NCBI RefSeq assembly: GCF_024138165.1
Contig: NZ_CP100000.1
Span: 434,001 to 498,000, forward strand
Source of the DNA: Halorussus vallis
GTDB taxonomy: Archaea > Halobacteriota > Halobacteria > Halobacteriales > Haladaptataceae
DNA: 64,000 nt
Direction of reading: 5' to 3'
The position numbers were made by a program, and so were the translations under genes. Positions 51,737-59,300 of this stretch are shown here, in pieces. The notes under the pieces are model-generated. The model ran no database searches. It was not told the origin of the DNA and saw only the letters and a program-made list of their open reading frames with translations. Each line of letters starts with the position of its first letter. The first letter of the stretch is position 1.

Positions 51737-52357
51737 TCAGTCCGAGCGCGATTTCTCGACGTAGGGCAACTCGGCAGCCGTCTCGGCGACCGCCTCGGCG
51801 TTCGACTTCAGGAGCGCGGTCGTGTCCCAGACGCCCTCGACGAGCGCCTTGCGCTGGGCGTCGTCGACCGTCGCGTCGATCTCCGTGTCGTCGTAGCGGA
51901 CCGTCTCGTCAGCCACGTCGACCTCGATTTCGGCGTCGGGGTTGTCGTCGACGTAGTCCTGGAGCGCCTCGATGTCCTCCTGGTCGGCGGTGACCGTCGG
52001 CACGCCGAGCGCGAGGCAGTTGCCCGCGAAGATCTCGGCGAAGCTCTCGCCGACGACGGCGTCGATGCCCCAGCGCTTGAGCGCCTGCGGCGCGTGCTCG
52101 CGCGAGGACCCGCAGCCGAAATTGGCGTTGACGACCAGCACCGAGGCGTCCCGGAACTGGTCCTCGTTGAACGGGTGGTCCTTGGGTTCGTCCTCGTCGT
52201 CGAACCGCTGGTCGTGGAACGCGAACTGGCCCAGGCCGTCGAAGGTGACGACCTTCATGAACCGCGCGGGGATGATCTGGTCGGTGTCGATGTCGTTTCC
52301 GCGTACGGGCACGCCCGCGCCCGCGACGTGTTCGACGGTCTCGATGTCGTCGTTCAC
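51737..52357 (-). CDS. leuD: 3-isopropylmalate dehydratase small subunit
   Basis: The 206-residue swivelling-domain subunit that, with LeuC, isomerises 2- to 3-isopropylmalate. '[20 protein letters not shown]' and '[19 protein letters not shown]' are the substrate-binding signatures. The GTG at 52357 overlaps the leuC stop by 4 nt (GTGA). The long in-frame extension upstream is antisense-like and not real. Followed by a 248-bp gap before leuB. Confidence 0.95.
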
Positions 52358-53793
52358 GCCTTCGTCACCTCCGAGTCGGGGAGGTCGGTTTCCTCGAGTT
52401 CGCGCACGTCGGTGACCTCCCCGCGAATCGCGGCCGCGGCGACCATCCGGGGGTTCATCAGCACGGTCTTGCCGTCCTTGCTCCCCTGTCGCCCGACGAA
52501 GTTGCGGTTCGACGAGGAGGCGCAGGCCTCGTCGCCCTCCAGTTGGTCGGGGTTCATCCCCAGACACATCGAACAGCCGGCTCCGCGCCAGTCGAAACCG
52601 GCCTCTTCGAAGACCTCGTCCAGCCCTTCGGCCTCTGCGGCGGCCTTCACGCGCTGGCTGCCGGGGACCACCATCGCGCGCACGTCGTCGTGAACCTCCC
52701 GGCCGGCGACGACGCGCGCCGCCCGACGCAGGTCGGGCAGACGCGCGTTCGTGCAGGAACCCAGGAACGCGACCTGGATGGGGTAGCCCTCCATCGTGTC
52801 GCCGGGTTCGACGCCCATGTGCTCCTGGGCGCGCCGGGCGGTGTCCTGCTTCTCGGCGGGTAGTTCTTCGGGGTCGGGAATCGGCTCGGTGACGCCGACG
52901 CCCTGGCCGGGCGTGGTGCCCCAGGTCACCGTCGGTTCGAGTTCGGAGCCGTCGATGACGACCTCGTCGTCGTACTCGGCGTCGGGGTCGGACCTGACGG
53001 ACTCCCAGTAGGGTTTGAGCTTCTCGAACTTCTCGGGGTCGTCGCGGAACGCGTCGGTGTCGGCCAGCCACTCGTAGGTCTTCTCGTCGGGGTTGACGTA
53101 GCCCGCGCGGGCGCCGCCCTCGATGGACATGTTGCAGATGCTCATCCGCCCCTCGACGTCGAGGCTCTCGATGGCCTCGCCGGCGTACTCGTAGACGTGG
53201 CCGACGCCGCCGTCGGTGCCGAGTCGGCGGATGACCTCCAGGATGATGTCCTTGGCCTCGACGCCCTCGCCGAGTTCGCCCGTCACGCGGATGCGCCGGA
53301 CCTTCTGTTTCTCCATCGCGACGGTGCCGGTCGCGAGTACGTCCCGAATCTGGGAGGTGCCGATGCCGAACGCCAGCGCGCCGAACGCGCCGTGGGTCGA
53401 GGTGTGACTGTCGCCGCAGACCACGGTCATCCCCGGCTGGGTCAGCCCCTGCTCCGGGCCGATGACGTGGACGATGCCCTGGTCGCCGGTGTCCGGACTG
53501 GAGAAGTCGATGCCCGCCTCGCGGACGTTCTCCTCCAGTTCGGCCATCATCTCCTCGGCCGCGCCCTCGTAGGGCCGATCGCGGTCCTCGGTCGGGACGA
53601 TGTGGTCGACGGTGGCGTGGGTGCGCTCGGGGTAGGCGACCTCCAGGTCGCGCTCCCGGAGCATGCCGAACGCCTGGGGGCTGGTGACTTCGTGGACGAG
53701 GTGGAGGCCAACGAACAACTGGGTCTGGCCGGTCGGGAGTTCGGTCACCTTGTGGCGGTCCCACACCTTGTCGTACAGGGTGCCCTCGCTCAT
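52354..53793 (-). CDS. leuC: 3-isopropylmalate dehydratase large subunit
   Basis: Aconitase-family Fe-S subunit, 479 residues. '4Fe-4S' ligands are in '[16 protein letters not shown]' and '[16 protein letters not shown]'; '[20 protein letters not shown]' is the active-site loop. The ATG at 53793 ('[14 protein letters not shown]') is chosen over 53802 by family alignment. Preceded by the small duplicated-motif gene and overlapping leuD by 4 nt. Confidence 0.96.
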
Positions 53794-53886
53794 GCTGACC
53801 ACCGGGTGTTCACTACGGCGGAATACCCCGCACTATGCGTCTCTACGTCCGAAAATGCGCGTACGAAGTTCATCGTGGGCTCCCGG

Positions 53887-54102
53887 TTACTCCTCTACCG
53901 CCTCGTTTTCCGCGCCGCGCTGGAAGACTCGATTCGCACCCTCGCCGTAGGGCGGCGTGTGGTCGACGTCCTCCATGGTGGCCGAACCCGCTGGTTCGGC
54001 CTCCGGGCGTCCGCCGTCGGCGGCCACGACCGGGCCGCGCTCGAACGGCCGGTTGATGGCCCCGCGGGCGGTGTACGGGTGGGTGTGGTTGACGTCGCTC
54101 AT
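53887..54102 (-). CDS. Small protein with internally duplicated motif between ilvC and leuC
   Basis: A 71-residue protein built from two related halves: 'MSDVNHTHPYTARG' with '...RPFERG' and, 40 residues on, 'MEDVDHTPPYGEG' with '...RVFQRG'. The second half looks like a duplication of the first. An in-frame ATG at 54153 would add 17 residues and place the start 6 nt after the ilvC stop. I recall comparable short genes at this spot in other haloarchaea, so it is probably a real, conserved cistron of the operon, but no function is known. Confidence 0.65.
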   Translation of the reverse strand: MSDVNHTHPYTARGAINRPFERGPVVAADGGRPEAEPAGSATMEDVDHTPPYGEGANRVFQRGAENEAVEE

Positions 54103-54158
54103 GGTTCGGTCGGTCGATTCTCGCGTCGCGTCGGGTCGGTCGGTTCGGTTCATCGGTT

Positions 54159-55223
54159 TCAGTCGTCGGCTTGCACTCGCGTCTTCTCGGACTCGTCGTC
54201 CTCGTTCGATTCCTCGGCCTGCTCGTCGGCCCACGCGAAGAGGTCGCGCAGGCGCGCGCCCACGTCCTCGATGTCGTGGTTGACGTCGGCCTCCTTGTGC
54301 TGACGGTAGACCGGCCGGCCGGTCTGGTTCTCGGCGATCCACTCGCGGGCGAACTCGCCGTTCTGGACCTGTTCGAGCGCCTCCTCCATGTTCTCGCGGA
54401 CGCCCTCGTCGACGATGGCGGGGCCGCGGGTCAATCCGCCGTACTCTGCGGTGTCCGAGACGGAGTCCCACATCTCGCGCATCCCGCCCTCGTACATCAG
54501 GTCGACGATGAGCTTCATCTCGTTCAGGCACTCGAAGTAGGCCATCTCGGGGCTGTAGCCGGCGTCGACCAGCGTCTCGTAGCCCACTTTGATGAGTTCG
54601 GTGATACCGCCACAGAGCACCGCCTGCTCGCCGAACAGGTCGGTCTCGGTCTCCTCGCGGAACGAGGTTTCCACGACGCCCGCGCGGGCACAGCCGATGG
54701 CCTGCCCGTAAGCGAGCGCCTCCTGCTTGGCGTCGCCGGTCGCGTCCTGGTAGACCGCCAACAGGCCGGGCGTCCCCTCGCCGTTCTCGTAGTTCCGCCG
54801 GACGAGGTGGCCCGGCGACTTCGGCGCAATCATCGTCACGTCGACGTCCTCCGGGGGCTCTATCTGGCCGTAGTGGATGTTGAACCCGTGGGCGAACTGG
54901 AGCGTGTCGCCCGCCTCCAGGTTCTCCTTGATGTCCTCGTACACCGCGGACTGGACCGTGTCGGGCACCAGCACCGAGACGATGTCGGCGTCGGCGGCGG
55001 CCTCCTTCGGGGTCGTCACCCGCAGACCGTCGGCCTCCGCGGCGTCCCGCGACGAGGAGTCCTCGCGCAGACCCACGATCACGTCCACGCCGCTGTCGGC
55101 GAGGTTCTGGGCGTGTGCGTGGCCCTGGCTGCCGTAGCCGAGTACGGCCACGGTCTTGCCTTCGATGTGCGAGCTATCGGCGTCGTCGTCGTAGTACACT
55201 GTCGTGTCGAATTCGTCAGTCAT
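54159..55223 (-). CDS. ilvC: Ketol-acid reductoisomerase
   Basis: Class I enzyme of 354 residues, second step of valine and isoleucine synthesis. '[20 protein letters not shown]' is the NAD(P)H-binding Rossmann loop, '[13 protein letters not shown]' and '[20 protein letters not shown]' carry the Mg2+-binding acidic residues. The C-terminus ends in an acidic, Glu/Ser-rich tail. ATG at 55223 overlaps the ilvN stop by 8 nt. Confidence 0.97.
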
Positions 55224-55890
55224 CGTCTGAAGTCTCCTTCTGTATCTGCAGGTCGGTCTGGTTGACGGTGCTCTCGGCCGACGCGGCGGGTGATTCGCCC
55301 GGGGTGGTCGGCGTGTCGCCCCGCGAGAGGGCGGTCTGGCCGGTCCGGGCGATTTCGATGATGCCGAACTGCCGGAACGCGTCGACCGCGTCGTCGATCT
55401 TCTGGTGGTCGCCGGTGATCTGGACCGTGATGGTCCGCGGGCCGGCGTCCAGCGTCTGGCCCTCGTACATTTGGGTGATGGCGTGGACCTTGTCGGGTTC
55501 CTCGCCACGGACCTTCAGCAGGACGAGTTCGGCCCGGACCGCGTCGTCGTCGAGTTCGCCGACGGCGATGACGGGCACGAGCTTCTCGACCTGCTTCTTT
55601 ATCTGGTCGATGCCGGCGTCGGTTTCCTCGACGACCAGGGTGATGCGGGCGTGGCCCTCGACCGTGGTCGAGCCGACGGTGAGGCTCTCGATGTTGAACT
55701 GGCGCCGGGAGAAGAGTCCCGACACCTTCGCCAGCACGCCCGGTTCGTGCTCGACCAGCGCCGAGACGACCGCTTTCCGGGTGTCCTGTTCAGCGTGGGC
55801 CTCAGGGTCGATGCGCTCGCCCTGGGCATTGCGCCGACCCGTCGGTTGGGGGCGCTCCTCGGGCGCGGGCCCTTGCAGTCCCCCGGTCAC
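55216..55890 (-). CDS. ilvN: Acetolactate synthase small (regulatory) subunit
   Basis: A 224-residue regulatory subunit. An ACT domain with '[20 protein letters not shown]' and '[20 protein letters not shown]' binds the feedback effector (valine in relatives); the C-terminal dimerisation domain contains '[20 protein letters not shown]'. The N-terminal 35 residues and the last 35 are low-complexity extensions. GTG at 55890 overlaps the ilvB stop by 4 nt. Confidence 0.94.
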
Positions 55891-57689
55891 AGCTGACCCT
55901 CCTCCAGCGCGAACTCGCCGTTGGCGCCGCCCGAGGGGACCATCGGGTAGACGTTCGCGTCGGGGTCGATGCGGAAGTCGATGACCGACGGACCGTCGTA
56001 TGCCATCGCGGCCTCGACGGCGTCGGCGACCTCGTCGTAGTCCGAAACCGCGAAGCCCTGCGCGCCGAACGCCTCGGCGATCTTGTCGAACTCGGGGCAC
56101 CAGTCGTACTCGGAGGCCGAGTGGCGGCCCTCGAAGAAGGCGTCCTGCCACTGGCGGACCATCCCGATGTACTCGTTGTTGAGCACCGCGACCGTGATGT
56201 CGAGGTTCTCGCGGACCGCGACCGCGAGTTCCTGGAGCGTCATCAGGAACGAGCCGTCACCTTCGACGGCGACGACCTGTTGGTCGGGCGCGGCCAGTTT
56301 CGCGCCGATGGCCGCGGGCAGGCCGTAGCCCATCGTCCCCAGGCCGTGGCTCGAAACCCACGTCCGGGGCTGGGTGAACGTCCAGTACTGGACCGCCCAC
56401 ATCTGGTGCTGGCCGACGCCGGTCGTGACGATGGCGTCGTCGTCGGTGGCCTCGTCCAGCGCCTCGACGACGAACTGCGGTTTCAGCGGTTCGTCGTCGG
56501 GCGTCTGATAGTCCATCGGGTATTCGGCCTTCCACTCGCGGCACTGCTCGCGCCACGCCTCGGCGTCCGGGGCGCGCTCCATCTCGGCGCCGACCTGTTC
56601 GAGGACGGTGCCGGCGTCGCCGACGACCGCCACGTCGGCCTTGACGTTCTTCGAGATCTCGGCGGGGTCGATGTCGACGTGGACGACCTCGGCCTCGGGC
56701 GCGAACGTCTCGACGCCGCCGGTGAGTCGGTCGTCGAACCGACAGCCGATGGCGAACAGCACGTCGCAGTGGGTCGTCGCCATGTTGGCGTAGCCGGTGC
56801 CGTGCATCCCGACCATCTCCATCGCGAGTTCGTCGTCCTCGGGGTAGACGCCCACGGCGGGCATCGAGGTGGCGACCGGAATGCCGTACTCGCGGGCGAA
56901 CGCCCGCAGTTCCTCGCTGGCGTCCCCCTTGACGACGCCGCCGCCCGCCAGGATGACGGGCTTCTCCGCGCGTTCGAGCGTGCGCGCGGCCGCGGCGACC
57001 GACTCGGCGTCGGCCTCGGTCGCGGGGTTGTACGTCTCGGGCGTCGCGGGTTCACCCGGGTCGGCCGCCGTCTGGGCGTTGGTCACGTCCTTCGGCAGGT
57101 CGACCAGCGTCGGCCCGGGTCGCCCTTCGGCGGCCAGTTCGAAGGCCTCGCCCACCGTCGGCCCCGCCTCGTCGGCGGTCTGGGCGAAGTAGTTGTGTTT
57201 GGTGATGGGCGCGGTCATCCCGGTGGTGTCCGTCTCCTGGAAGGCGTCGCTCCCGACGAAGTTCGTCGGGACCTGGCCGGTCAGCGCGACCATCGGGTCC
57301 GAGTCCATGCTGGCGTCGGCGAGGCCGGTCGCGAGGTTGGTCGCGCCCGGTCCCGACGTCGCCAGGCAGACGCCGGGCGTACCCGAGACGATGCCGTAGG
57401 CGTCGGCGGCGTGGGCGGCCGCCTGCTCGTGGGCCATCATCACGTGGCGCAGTTCCGAGTCGTACAGCGCGTCGTAGACGGGCATGATGGCTCCGCCCTG
57501 GACGCCGAACAGCGTCTCGGCGCCCGCGCGTTCGAGCGCGGCGATGACGGCCTGAGCGCCCGTCCGAACGGGATTCGGCTCGGCTGCGCCGTCTTCGGAC
57601 GCGGCGTCCGCGGATTCGGACTCGTCGGCGTCGGCGGACTCGGCGTCCGCCTCGTCCTCGGTCCGTCGCGGCGACGCGGACTCACTCAC
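55887..57689 (-). CDS. ilvB: Acetolactate synthase large (catalytic) subunit
   Basis: TPP-dependent enzyme of 600 residues that condenses pyruvate with pyruvate or 2-oxobutyrate. The catalytic Glu is in 'VMMAHEQAAAHAADAYG', FAD/central domain in 'GMHGTGYANMATTHCDV', and the TPP motif 'GDGSFLMTLQELAVAVREN' to 'LNNEYIGM'. The first 40 residues are an acidic, Ala/Asp/Glu/Ser-rich extension. GTG start with a Shine-Dalgarno 'ggagg' about 12 nt upstream, at the end of a 235-nt leader that encodes a Val/Ile-containing peptide. Confidence 0.97.
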   Translation of the reverse strand: MSESASPRRTEDEADAESADADESESADAASEDGAAEPNPVRTGAQAVIAALERAGAETLFGVQGGAIMPVYDALYDSELRHVMMAHEQAAAHAADAYGIVSGTPGVCLATSGPGATNLATGLADASMDSDPMVALTGQVPTNFVGSDAFQETDTTGMTAPITKHNYFAQTADEAGPTVGEAFELAAEGRPGPTLVDLPKDVTNAQTAADPGEPATPETYNPATEADAESVAAAARTLERAEKPVILAGGGVVKGDASEELRAFAREYGIPVATSMPAVGVYPEDDELAMEMVGMHGTGYANMATTHCDVLFAIGCRFDDRLTGGVETFAPEAEVVHVDIDPAEISKNVKADVAVVGDAGTVLEQVGAEMERAPDAEAWREQCREWKAEYPMDYQTPDDEPLKPQFVVEALDEATDDDAIVTTGVGQHQMWAVQYWTFTQPRTWVSSHGLGTMGYGLPAAIGAKLAAPDQQVVAVEGDGSFLMTLQELAVAVRENLDITVAVLNNEYIGMVRQWQDAFFEGRHSASEYDWCPEFDKIAEAFGAQGFAVSDYDEVADAVEAAMAYDGPSVIDFRIDPDANVYPMVPSGGANGEFALEEGQL

Positions 57690-57757
57690 GGGTGGTCCCT
57701 CCGTTGGTCGGGGTTCGATACTGCTGTCGTGTCTGTGTGGTATTTCGTGTCACGTTC

Positions 57758-57865
57758 GGCGGTCGAGCGCGCGCTGGCTCTGGAGACGATGCAAACTGGA
57801 AACCGATTCGGAGGAGAGGTGTAGTAGGGGCTCAGGCCCCTACAATAATCACGCGCTCGACGGCC
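57758..57865 (-). promoter_or_regulatory. Long-range helix and hairpin in the ilvB leader
   Basis: On the RNA, 57865-57852 (within the leader-peptide codons for Ala-Val-Glu-Arg, just before Val-Ile-Ile-Val) can pair with 57771-57758 at 13 of 14 positions. Enclosed between them is a perfect 8-bp hairpin with a 4-nt loop (57824-57831 with 57836-57843). In addition 'cctccg' at about 57808-57813 can pair with the ilvB Shine-Dalgarno region 'cggagg'. A ribosome stalled on the Val/Ile codons would cover the first arm of the long helix and the hairpin, so the folding is coupled to translation of the peptide. Confidence 0.55.
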
Positions 57866-57918
57866 GCGACGCTCTCGGTCTGCGAGGGCGTCTGCGGAGC
57901 GTACGGCGACCGTCGCAT
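57832..57918 (-). CDS. Candidate ilv leader peptide (28 residues)
   Basis: ATG at 57918, TGA at 57834-57832. The peptide reads 'MRRSPYAPQTPSQTESV' and ends 'AAVERVIIVGA'. The run Val-Ile-Ile-Val is encoded by GTG ATT ATT GTA; ATT and GTA are uncommon in this GC-rich genome, which otherwise uses ATC and GTC. The stop codon lies exactly in the loop of the hairpin at 57824-57843. The ATG is 5-8 nt after the predicted transcription start from the TATA box at 57946-57956. It precedes ilvB by 142 nt. A regulatory role as in bacterial ilv leaders is inferred. Confidence 0.6.
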   Translation of the reverse strand: MRRSPYAPQTPSQTESVAAVERVIIVGA

Positions 57919-57945
57919 CGTTATGGACAGTGTACCGTGCCGGAA

Positions 57946-57956
57946 GGTTATAACCC
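57946..57956 (-). promoter_or_regulatory. TATA box of the ilv operon
   Basis: 'ggttataaccc' is the only strong TATA-like element in the 358-bp gap between leuA and ilvB. Its centre, near 57951, predicts transcription from about 57924, 235 nt before the ilvB start, leaving leuA in a separate transcript. Confidence 0.6.
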
Positions 57957-58047
57957 TTACTCGCCGGGCAACGATTGCGCGAACCGGCCGACCCTGTCAC
58001 GCCCGCCGCGCGCGGCTGGCGGGTCGGGGCGAACGCCGGAACGGGCA

Positions 58048-59275
58048 TTACGCGCTCGCCTCCCGTTCCTTCCGTGAGACGCCGACCTCGCGGGCGAACC
58101 GCTCCAGGTCGGCGACCGTGACGCGGTTCTTCTCCGCGCCGTGGTCCTTGACCCGGCGCGTGACCTCCCGGACCTCGTCGTCGGTCGGCGAGAAGCCCCG
58201 CTCGTCCAGGCGCTTGCGCACCGAGTTGGTGCCGGTGTGCTTGCCCAGCACGAACTCCCGCTGGGCGCCGACCATCTCGGGGGTCATGCAGCCCGGCTCG
58301 AAGGTGTCGCTGTTCTCGATGACGCCCGCCGCGTGGATGCCGCTCTCGTGGGCGAAGGCGTTGTCGCCGATGACCGGCTTGTTGGCCGGCACCGGCACGT
58401 CGCTGTAGGTTTCGACCATCGAGGAGATCTCGGCGATGCGAGTCGTCTCGATGCCGGTGTCGACGCCGTAGACGGCCTCGGCGGCCATCACGACCTCCTC
58501 GTAGGCCGCGTTGCCCGCGCGCTCGCCGATACCGTTGATCGAAACCTGGGCCTGGTCGGCCCCGGCCTCGAAGCCGGCCAGCGCGTTGGCCGACGCCAAC
58601 CCGAAGTCGTCGTGGGTGTGGACGTCGATGCGCGCGTCGGTGTGCTCTTTGACCGTCTTCACCAGGTCGGCGAAGCGCGTCGGCGTGGCGACCCCGCAGG
58701 TGTCGGGGATGTTGATCCACTCGACGCCCGCCTCGGAGACGGCCTCGACCATCTCGACGAGGAACGCCTCGTCGGTCCGAGTGGCGTCCATCGGCGAGAA
58801 CATCGGCGTCGCGCCCGACTCCGCGACGCGTTCGACGGCGCTCACGGAGCGTTCCTTGACCTCTTCGCGCGTAGCGTGCATCGAATCCTCGATCTGGACG
58901 TCGCTGGTCGACGCGAAGACGTGGACCATCTCGACGCCGGAGTCGATGGCCGCTTCGACGTCCTTGTCGACGACGCGCGCCAGCCCGCAGGTCGTCGCCG
59001 ACGTGCTCGCGGCGATGTCGCTGACGGCCTCGAACTCGGCGTCCGAGTTGACCGGGAACCCGGCTTCGATGACGTGGGTGCCCATCTCGTCGAGCGCGGC
59101 CGCGATGGCGCGTTTCTCGTCGTAGGAGAAGGATGTACGCGGTGCCTGTTCGCCGTCGCGCAGGGTGGTGTCGAAGACCCGTACAGACTCGAACTCAGTA
59201 GTGGTAGCTAACGTACCCTCGAAGAACTCGACCCCCCCGACTGGTGTCGGAGGAGTGCATGTCGTGATCTGACAT
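58048..59275 (-). CDS. leuA: 2-isopropylmalate synthase, frame broken near the N-terminus
   Basis: First committed enzyme of leucine synthesis, a DRE-TIM metallolyase. The N-terminal catalytic signature 'RVFDTTLRDGEQAPRTSFSY' is encoded at about 59120-59185, upstream of the first in-frame ATG (59085); 'HTHDDFGLASANALAGFEAG' and 'GERAGNAAYEEVV' hold the metal ligands. The promoter-proximal ATG at 59275 ('MSDHDMHSSDTSRGG') is in another frame and meets a stop at 59195; switching +1 at or near the G7 tract (59232-59238) joins it to 'VEFFEGTLATTTEFES' and LeuA. It may be a sequencing error, a slipped-strand mutation, phase variation or frameshifting. Without the N-terminus the enzyme would lack its active-site Arg. 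Confidence 0.85.
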
Positions 59276-59300
59276 TGTACTCTGACGTGGGGCCATTCTC

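Follow-up and report, generated by a model that had tools for sequence, protein, structure and literature searches.

Leader-peptide attenuation is a textbook mechanism in bacteria, and the question raised by the locus described here is whether a haloarchaeal operon for branched-chain amino acid (BCAA) synthesis is also controlled through a leader that is read by the ribosome. The window, by which we mean the whole 64,000-nucleotide stretch of Halorussus vallis DNA that was analysed, carries this leader on its minus strand between a gene of the 2-isopropylmalate synthase family (leuA) and an operon whose products are the large and small subunits of acetolactate synthase, ketol-acid reductoisomerase and the large subunit of isopropylmalate dehydratase (Table 1). 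We consider it probable (about 0.7) that the leader is a ribosome-read Ile/Val sensor placed before ilvB-ilvN-ilvC-leuC, acting through stalling on a first upstream ORF, uORF1, and relay by a second, uORF2. A first-pass annotation of the sequence had described a TATA box, a 28-codon ORF with the codons ATT ATT GTA and a stop codon within a perfect 8 bp hairpin, and all of these are present as described; uORF2 had been missed.

Table 1. Features of the leader and operon. Coordinates refer to the window unless another sequence is named.
Feature	Position	Strand	Basis
Leader promoter TATA box (TTATAA)	57953-57948	minus	sequence; TTWT box also upstream of uORF1 in relatives
Predicted transcription start	at or beside the uORF1 ATG	minus	promoter spacing
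uORF1, 28 codons, MRRSPYAPQTPSQTESVAAVERVIIVGA then stop, C-terminal VIIVGA	57918-57832	minus	conservation, frame control, promoter spacing
Region 1, 5' strand of long-range helix, within uORF1 just before the Ile codons	57866-57850	minus	locus-specific complementarity, predicted fold
ATT ATT GTA, Ile-Ile-Val putative regulatory codons	57849-57841	minus	codon conservation and operon codon usage
Core hairpin GTAGGGGC-CTGA-GCCCCTAC, perfect 8 bp	57843-57824	minus	pairing conserved, some compensated changes
uORF1 stop TGA in hairpin loop	57834-57832	minus	sequence
GCAYCG motif, T-rich stretch after	57787..57792	minus	motif count, alignment
Region 4, 3' strand of long-range helix, ends 3 nt before uORF2 start	57773-57757	minus	locus-specific complementarity, predicted fold
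uORF2, 23 codons, GTG start, TGA stop overlapping ilvB start	57753-57682	minus	frame control, low Ile+Leu+Val
ilvB, acetolactate synthase large subunit, putative controlled gene	55887..57689	minus	TIGR00118, 731 bits
ilvN, ilvC, small ORF, leuC (remainder of downstream operon)	52354..55896	minus	NCBIfam matches for ilvN, ilvC, leuC
Second element copy	L181 ~1310-1140; G123:C2 near 397923	minus	uORF1 and hairpin match

Conservation of uORF1 upstream of ilvB

The comparison set comprised 110 fetched haloarchaeal ilvB loci and the window (111 loci). uORF1 and the hairpin were found upstream of ilvB in 110 of these, always in one reading frame, and the core sequence AT[T/C]GTAGGGG followed by a C-run was likewise present in 110; the one exception (L073) reads Val-Val-Val-Gly instead. 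The first-pass annotation had looked to conservation of a Val/Ile ORF for confirmation of its reading, and this ORF proved to be class-wide and frame-locked. An ATG with an open frame to the core was present in the Ile-Val-Gly frame in all 105 unique loci, as against 0 and 14 for the other two frames, and when only ATGs preceded at 22-42 nt by a TTWT-like box were counted, they were distributed 99:2:1 over the frames, the Ile-Val-Gly frame first. Conserved in this manner, the leader layout is far beyond what chance would give. The uORF1 stop lies no more than 21 nt from the start of the core in 96 of the 105 loci. In nine Natrialbaceae (L012, L018, L020, L028, L029, L036, L037, L074 and L107) uORF1 reads through the whole hairpin, which is retained, to a stop a few codons past it (e.g. 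IVGASSPHL and stop).

The distance from the TTWT box to the uORF1 ATG is 29-35 nt in relatives, with a mode of 32. Because its start lies about 32 nt behind the TATA box, uORF1 is probably translated as a leaderless ORF; leaderless messages make up 72% of the coding transcripts of Haloferax volcanii (PMC4983044), which also makes it most likely that uORF1 is one. Locked to both frame and promoter, uORF1 would stand, like the short ORFs of trp- and ilvB-type attenuators, near the transcript start.

By whole-genome pattern search, the ATT form of the core motif was found in 292 of 391 haloarchaeal genomes. A search for the ATC form, covering 80 of the 99 genomes without the ATT form, recovered it in 64 of the 80, so that the exact core motif is present in at least 356 of the 391, at about one site per genome and with few control hits. 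Haloferax species carry the element. The leader is absent from four genomes of two divergent families (f6 and f11), in which leuA runs almost straight into ilvB.

Putative regulatory codons and the core hairpin

Every one of the 121 unique loci uses GTA for Val (for 105 of them the search had left the third position open), and in 113 the codon preceding it encodes Ile. Within the operon's own genes ATT accounts for 6.5% of Ile codons and GTA for 1.0% of Val codons; which synonymous codons are used is known to help set how sensitive an attenuator is (PMC1183508). In nearly all loci the codons at the hairpin include ones for amino acids that the operon makes, Ile or another BCAA together with Val. 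The universal codons are one Ile and one Val only, fewer than in most bacterial attenuators.

The four central pairs of the hairpin form in at least 97% of the 121 unique loci, with variable loops and a few compensated changes, and the uORF1 stop usually lies inside the loop. A search with the Rfam 15 covariance models gave no match up to E = 1 in positions 57500-58100 of the window. Pairing mostly survives where the hairpin sequence has drifted, and in such loci the residues after Val are altered, as in SPIVGPA (L114), GIVRAR (L130) and SIRVRAAMAH (L120 and L122). Elsewhere Ile is swapped for another branched-chain residue: LVLVGAL (L133), VVVGA (L073 and L112), RVVVGAA (L134) and AVVGA (L111). 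Exceptions to the [Ile/Val/Leu]-Val pattern are AIIGRVGAP (L131) and the VFVGAA of a paralogous copy (L119). The genome harbouring the latter (G069) has two ilvB-like genes, the second of which has a leader with VFVGAA directly before the stop, a rewritten hairpin and a Phe codon at the position of Ile in other loci.

These variants bear on the possibility of an arrest peptide, in which a nascent chain ending IVGA would stall the ribosome on a metabolite, with no need for codons that sense charged tRNA. I-V-G-A/V is indeed nearly invariant in most genera and is followed immediately by the stop, as an arrest peptide might be. However, Gly-Ala shifts with the sequence of the hairpin (IVGP, IVRA, RVRAA) and hence mostly tracks the RNA, and the upstream residues of uORF1 vary freely; conservation of the peptide independently of the RNA, as in TnaC-type leaders, was not seen, the residues after Val following the hairpin sequence. 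Selection would appear to keep mainly [Ile/Val/Leu] and then Val, with Gly-Ala mostly a by-product of the hairpin arm. As pairing and [Ile/Val/Leu]-Val mostly persist while later residues change, codon sensing is favoured; the retained pair of residues would fit charged-tRNA sensing better than an arrest peptide, which we regard as unlikely.

A second leader ORF overlapping ilvB

In 96 of 104 loci the uORF1 stop is followed, before ilvB, by a second ORF, uORF2, whose stop overlaps the ilvB start, as in termination-reinitiation pairs; these counts, like those that follow for uORF2, come from related loci and are not independent events. The overlap is mostly ATGA or GTGA, with TGA at +1 of the ilvB start in 90 loci, and the eight loci in which uORF2 is missing are mostly Halorubrum relatives. 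Overlapping gene pairs have been tested in H. volcanii and E. coli, and 13 of the 14 cases showed strict coupling (PMC6728339).

The first ATG between the uORF1 stop and ilvB falls in the uORF2 frame in 84 of 87 loci, and all ATGs in this span are divided 95:3:7 among the frames. From the first ATG to ilvB there are no stops in the uORF2 frame, compared with 44 and 66 in the other two. This frame bias of ATGs and stops rules out uORF2 as a chance effect of the ATGA start. Thr, Arg, Pro and Ala are abundant in the peptides encoded by uORF2, and Ile+Leu+Val make up only 3.2% of their residues; the other frames give 11.8% and 8.0%, the body of uORF1 gives 18%, and 7.4% would be expected from composition alone; in the window there is no Ile, Leu or Val past the start codon. 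Having almost no codons for these residues, uORF2 could be translated during their shortage.

The conservation of two reading frames is also informative for two further explanations. The inverted repeat is strongly conserved in sequence and occurs once per genome, and could on that account be a DNA site for a transcription factor, the ORFs being incidental. Its spacer is variable in length, however, the repeat lies far inside the transcript, and both ORFs are frame-locked (uORF1 in 105/105 loci, uORF2 in 84/87); the operator reading was rejected on the variable spacer and the frame-locking, and we hold it to be highly improbable. Alternatively the two ORFs, both being conserved as ORFs, might encode small functional proteins that act elsewhere in the cell. 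Outside the end of uORF1, however, the two peptides differ greatly between loci in both sequence and length, and the part that is conserved is the part under the hairpin; to this explanation we give the least credence of all.

A long-range helix in front of uORF2

The first-pass annotation had claimed a 13-of-14 long-range pairing, and in the window 57865-57852 does pair with 57771-57758 at 13 of 14 positions. This pairing is part of the predicted fold along with the core hairpin: the minimum-free-energy structure of the window leader (-89.8 kcal/mol, z -2.1 against dinucleotide shuffles) contains both helices, nested. When the two strands of each locus were compared, ungapped, with strands taken from different loci, own-locus complementarity had a z of 6.5 and none of 2000 permutations was as good, whereas a neighbouring segment of uORF1 used as a control gave a z of only 1.6, and control comparisons with the uORF2 body, the Shine-Dalgarno and the start region revealed no locus-specific complementarity. 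A gapped duplex test was not specific (p about 0.07), so the long-range helix result depends on the scoring. The previously proposed pairing of the ilvB Shine-Dalgarno with a segment that follows the hairpin did not hold up, the complementarity within loci being no better than between loci (z 0.6).

From genus to genus the two strands of the long-range helix change in sequence but keep their complementarity, as in Halorussus (GTCGAGCGCGTG/CACGCGCTCGAC), a Halalkalicoccus relative (GTAGCGCGCG/CGCGCGCTAC), Halonotius (TGCTGTCGG/CCGACAGCA) and Halohasta (GCTGTCGAC/GTCGACAGC). The helix is clear in Halorussus, Halalkalicoccus and Halonotius and weak in Natrialbaceae (z 1.9), and it was not found in Haloferax. 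Of the covariation that had been sought in both helices, that of the hairpin (its pairing kept) was recovered and that of the long-range helix likewise, but the latter only in some genera.

Of the 24 loci with a strong helix, 16 have its 3' strand ending no more than 6 nt from the uORF2 start, and this start is likely to be the helix's first target. The modelled cost of opening the uORF2 start of the window fell from 12.4 to 8.2 kcal/mol with a ribosome on the Ile codon; a ribosome on the uORF1 stop also opened it in part in the model (9.8 kcal/mol). Opening of uORF2 by a stalled ribosome was not seen in the models of Natrialbaceae. A helix that would close the uORF2 start, with modelled opening by a leader ribosome, was seen in Halorussus, Halalkalicoccus and Halonotius and was weak or absent elsewhere.

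Proposed mechanism and a transcriptional alternative

Comparison shows conservation of uORF1 and uORF2, of the putative regulatory codons, of the core hairpin and of the uORF2/ilvB overlap, and in several genera of the long-range helix as well; as an architecture, a BCAA-sensing leader peptide is well supported by these sequence comparisons. From this architecture we infer translation of uORF1, stalling, a structural switch and its direction, with ilvB expression as the output. Transcription would begin at the uORF1 start codon or next to it, and translation of this ORF would be leaderless. With sufficient Ile-tRNA and Val-tRNA, the ribosome would pass the rare ATT and GTA codons, terminate in the hairpin loop and leave, whereupon the core hairpin would form, together with the long-range helix around it in loci that have one, and the uORF2 start would be closed. 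If Ile or Val were scarce, the ribosome would stall on ATT/GTA and cover the 5' strands of both helices, opening uORF2, and the overlap of its stop with the ilvB start would hand ribosomes on to ilvB. Where the long-range helix exists, we infer that the main output is translation of ilvB through uORF2; in genera without this helix the hairpin must act otherwise, possibly on transcription.

The span between the two ORFs has features of its own. A G-poor stretch (4% G) follows the hairpin at 57787-57820 in the window and at the same place in most loci. GCAYCG occurs in 78 of the 104 loci, against about 13% expected, and TTTT between uORF1 and uORF2 in 45 of the 104, against 29 expected, being missing from more than half of them. 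GCAYCG-TTTTC as an internal promoter for uORF2 was dropped because its distance to the uORF2 start varies (~27 to >40 nt) while the spacing of the uORF1 promoter is nearly fixed at ~32 nt.

In transcription attenuation, completion of uORF1 would leave untranslated, G-poor RNA and permit FttA-type termination near the U-rich GCAYCG-TTTTC; a ribosome stalled for Ile or Val would prevent termination, and translation of uORF2 would protect the transcript further. The drop in G just past the uORF1 stop and the excess of TTTT and GCAYCG are consistent with this, these features are found also where the long-range helix is not, and FttA has been credited with archaeal polarity (PMC12548453). The first-pass annotation was right, however, that no T-rich terminator directly follows the hairpin: there is no T-run at this place, the many loci lacking TTTT in the span argue in the same direction, and a stalled ribosome would leave the G-poor stretch uncovered, so that the direction of control is ambiguous. 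Mutually exclusive antiterminator and terminator helices with a U-run were also not found in the leader, its helices being nested. Since the hairpin, the G-poor stretch and GCAYCG are general, a transcriptional output, perhaps FttA-type polarity, is the strongest rival to the uORF2 route and may coexist with it, although on its own account we consider it possible but doubtful.

Comparison with known systems

In the translation attenuation of erm and cat genes, a leader ribosome stalled in response to an antibiotic uncovers the start site of the following ORF, which a helix otherwise encloses. The Ile/Val sensor proposed here would work likewise; unlike erm and cat, it would respond to a lack of amino acids and would expose the start of a relay ORF coupled to ilvB, and the helix is present only in some genera. 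In yeast GCN4, serial uORFs with eIF2 kinase logic decide translation of the main gene during starvation. The haloarchaeal leader would similarly set main-gene translation in starvation by two ORFs in series, but without eIF2 kinase logic, its sensor being codon-specific stalling. The ATGA or GTGA overlap of uORF2 and ilvB is like that of the start/stop overlapping pairs of H. volcanii (PMC6728339), although here the first of the pair is no enzyme gene but a short leader ORF poor in BCAA codons.

Bacterial counterparts are the uORF of Corynebacterium ilvBNC (PMC10272879, PMC11857589) and E. coli ivbL. Shared with these ilvB/ilvBNC attenuators are a short ORF with branched-chain codons, its place in the leader of the same operon and the adjoining RNA hairpins. 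The haloarchaeal leader differs in its probably leaderless sensor ORF, few regulatory codons and stop within the hairpin loop, in helices that are nested rather than mutually exclusive, without a terminator directly after the hairpin, and in a second, BCAA-poor ORF that overlaps ilvB. In open-access full text only bacterial cases and no published archaeal amino-acid-sensing leader were found; coming from open-access text alone, this is no proof of novelty.

Leader ORFs in another family and a second copy of the element

An outgroup survey covered the sequence upstream of ilvB in further families of the haloarchaeal phylum. In family f15, which we take to be probably Archaeoglobaceae, short ORFs with Val/Ile/Leu runs end just before ilvB (e.g. 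MLANCGIRNLELFSVIIVVVQ, MQENFPVVVVGLVILF and MNATPFSEKIGVSFLGVVILVGIIVVLL). Six or more Ile, Leu or Val in the last ten codons were found in 16 of 23 f15 loci, a level reached by none of the 37 loci from the remaining outgroups and by 2% of shuffled sequences; the four f15 loci that scored zero do carry a Val/Ile/Leu-run ORF under a looser listing. Nearly every ilvB in f15 has such an ORF within ~100 nt upstream (L161, L166, L171, L173, L174 and L182-L199), and some of these are then followed by a hairpin and a T-run (e.g. L188 and L194). By sequence, the f15 ORFs look more like classical leader peptides.

We see an even chance that the whole picture is correct, that is, a two-ORF archaeal attenuator in nearly all haloarchaea, comprising a leaderless Ile/Val sensor and a BCAA-poor relay coupled to ilvB, and a separate leader ORF with a Val/Ile/Leu run in another family. 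If so, at least two forms of ribosome-sensed amino-acid control would be present in Archaea, and archaea too would gauge amino-acid supply via the translating ribosome, from a leaderless ORF. Leaderless translation would then be closely coupled with folding of the leader or with the polymerase, two conserved small ORFs would be explained, and archaeal genetics would gain a native Ile/Val-responsive switch.

Most of the extra matches to the core motif were duplicate counts of one site or arose by chance, and one is a real second copy. It lies in a genome of the window's family (G123), where a second uORF1 ending RLIVGV before its stop and a hairpin, GTAGGGGT-ctgac-ACCCCTAC, precede a small gene; a C-G pair of the stem is replaced by T-A with pairing kept. 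A portable second copy argues for a regulatory cassette.

Upstream of the leader, the leuA frame of the window lacks the usual N-terminus and breaks at a run of seven G (~59230-59300, minus strand), which could reflect a mistake in the assembly or a genuine frameshift. Neither the G123 gene behind the second copy (MTENRR...DVDHTPPHEAPGANRVFERG) nor the unannotated small ORF that lies in the window between ilvC and leuC (53887-54158, minus strand) had a match in Pfam. By eye the product of the former resembles the latter, which contains a repeated motif (VNHTHPYTARGAINRPFERG, VDHTPPYGEGANRVFQRG).
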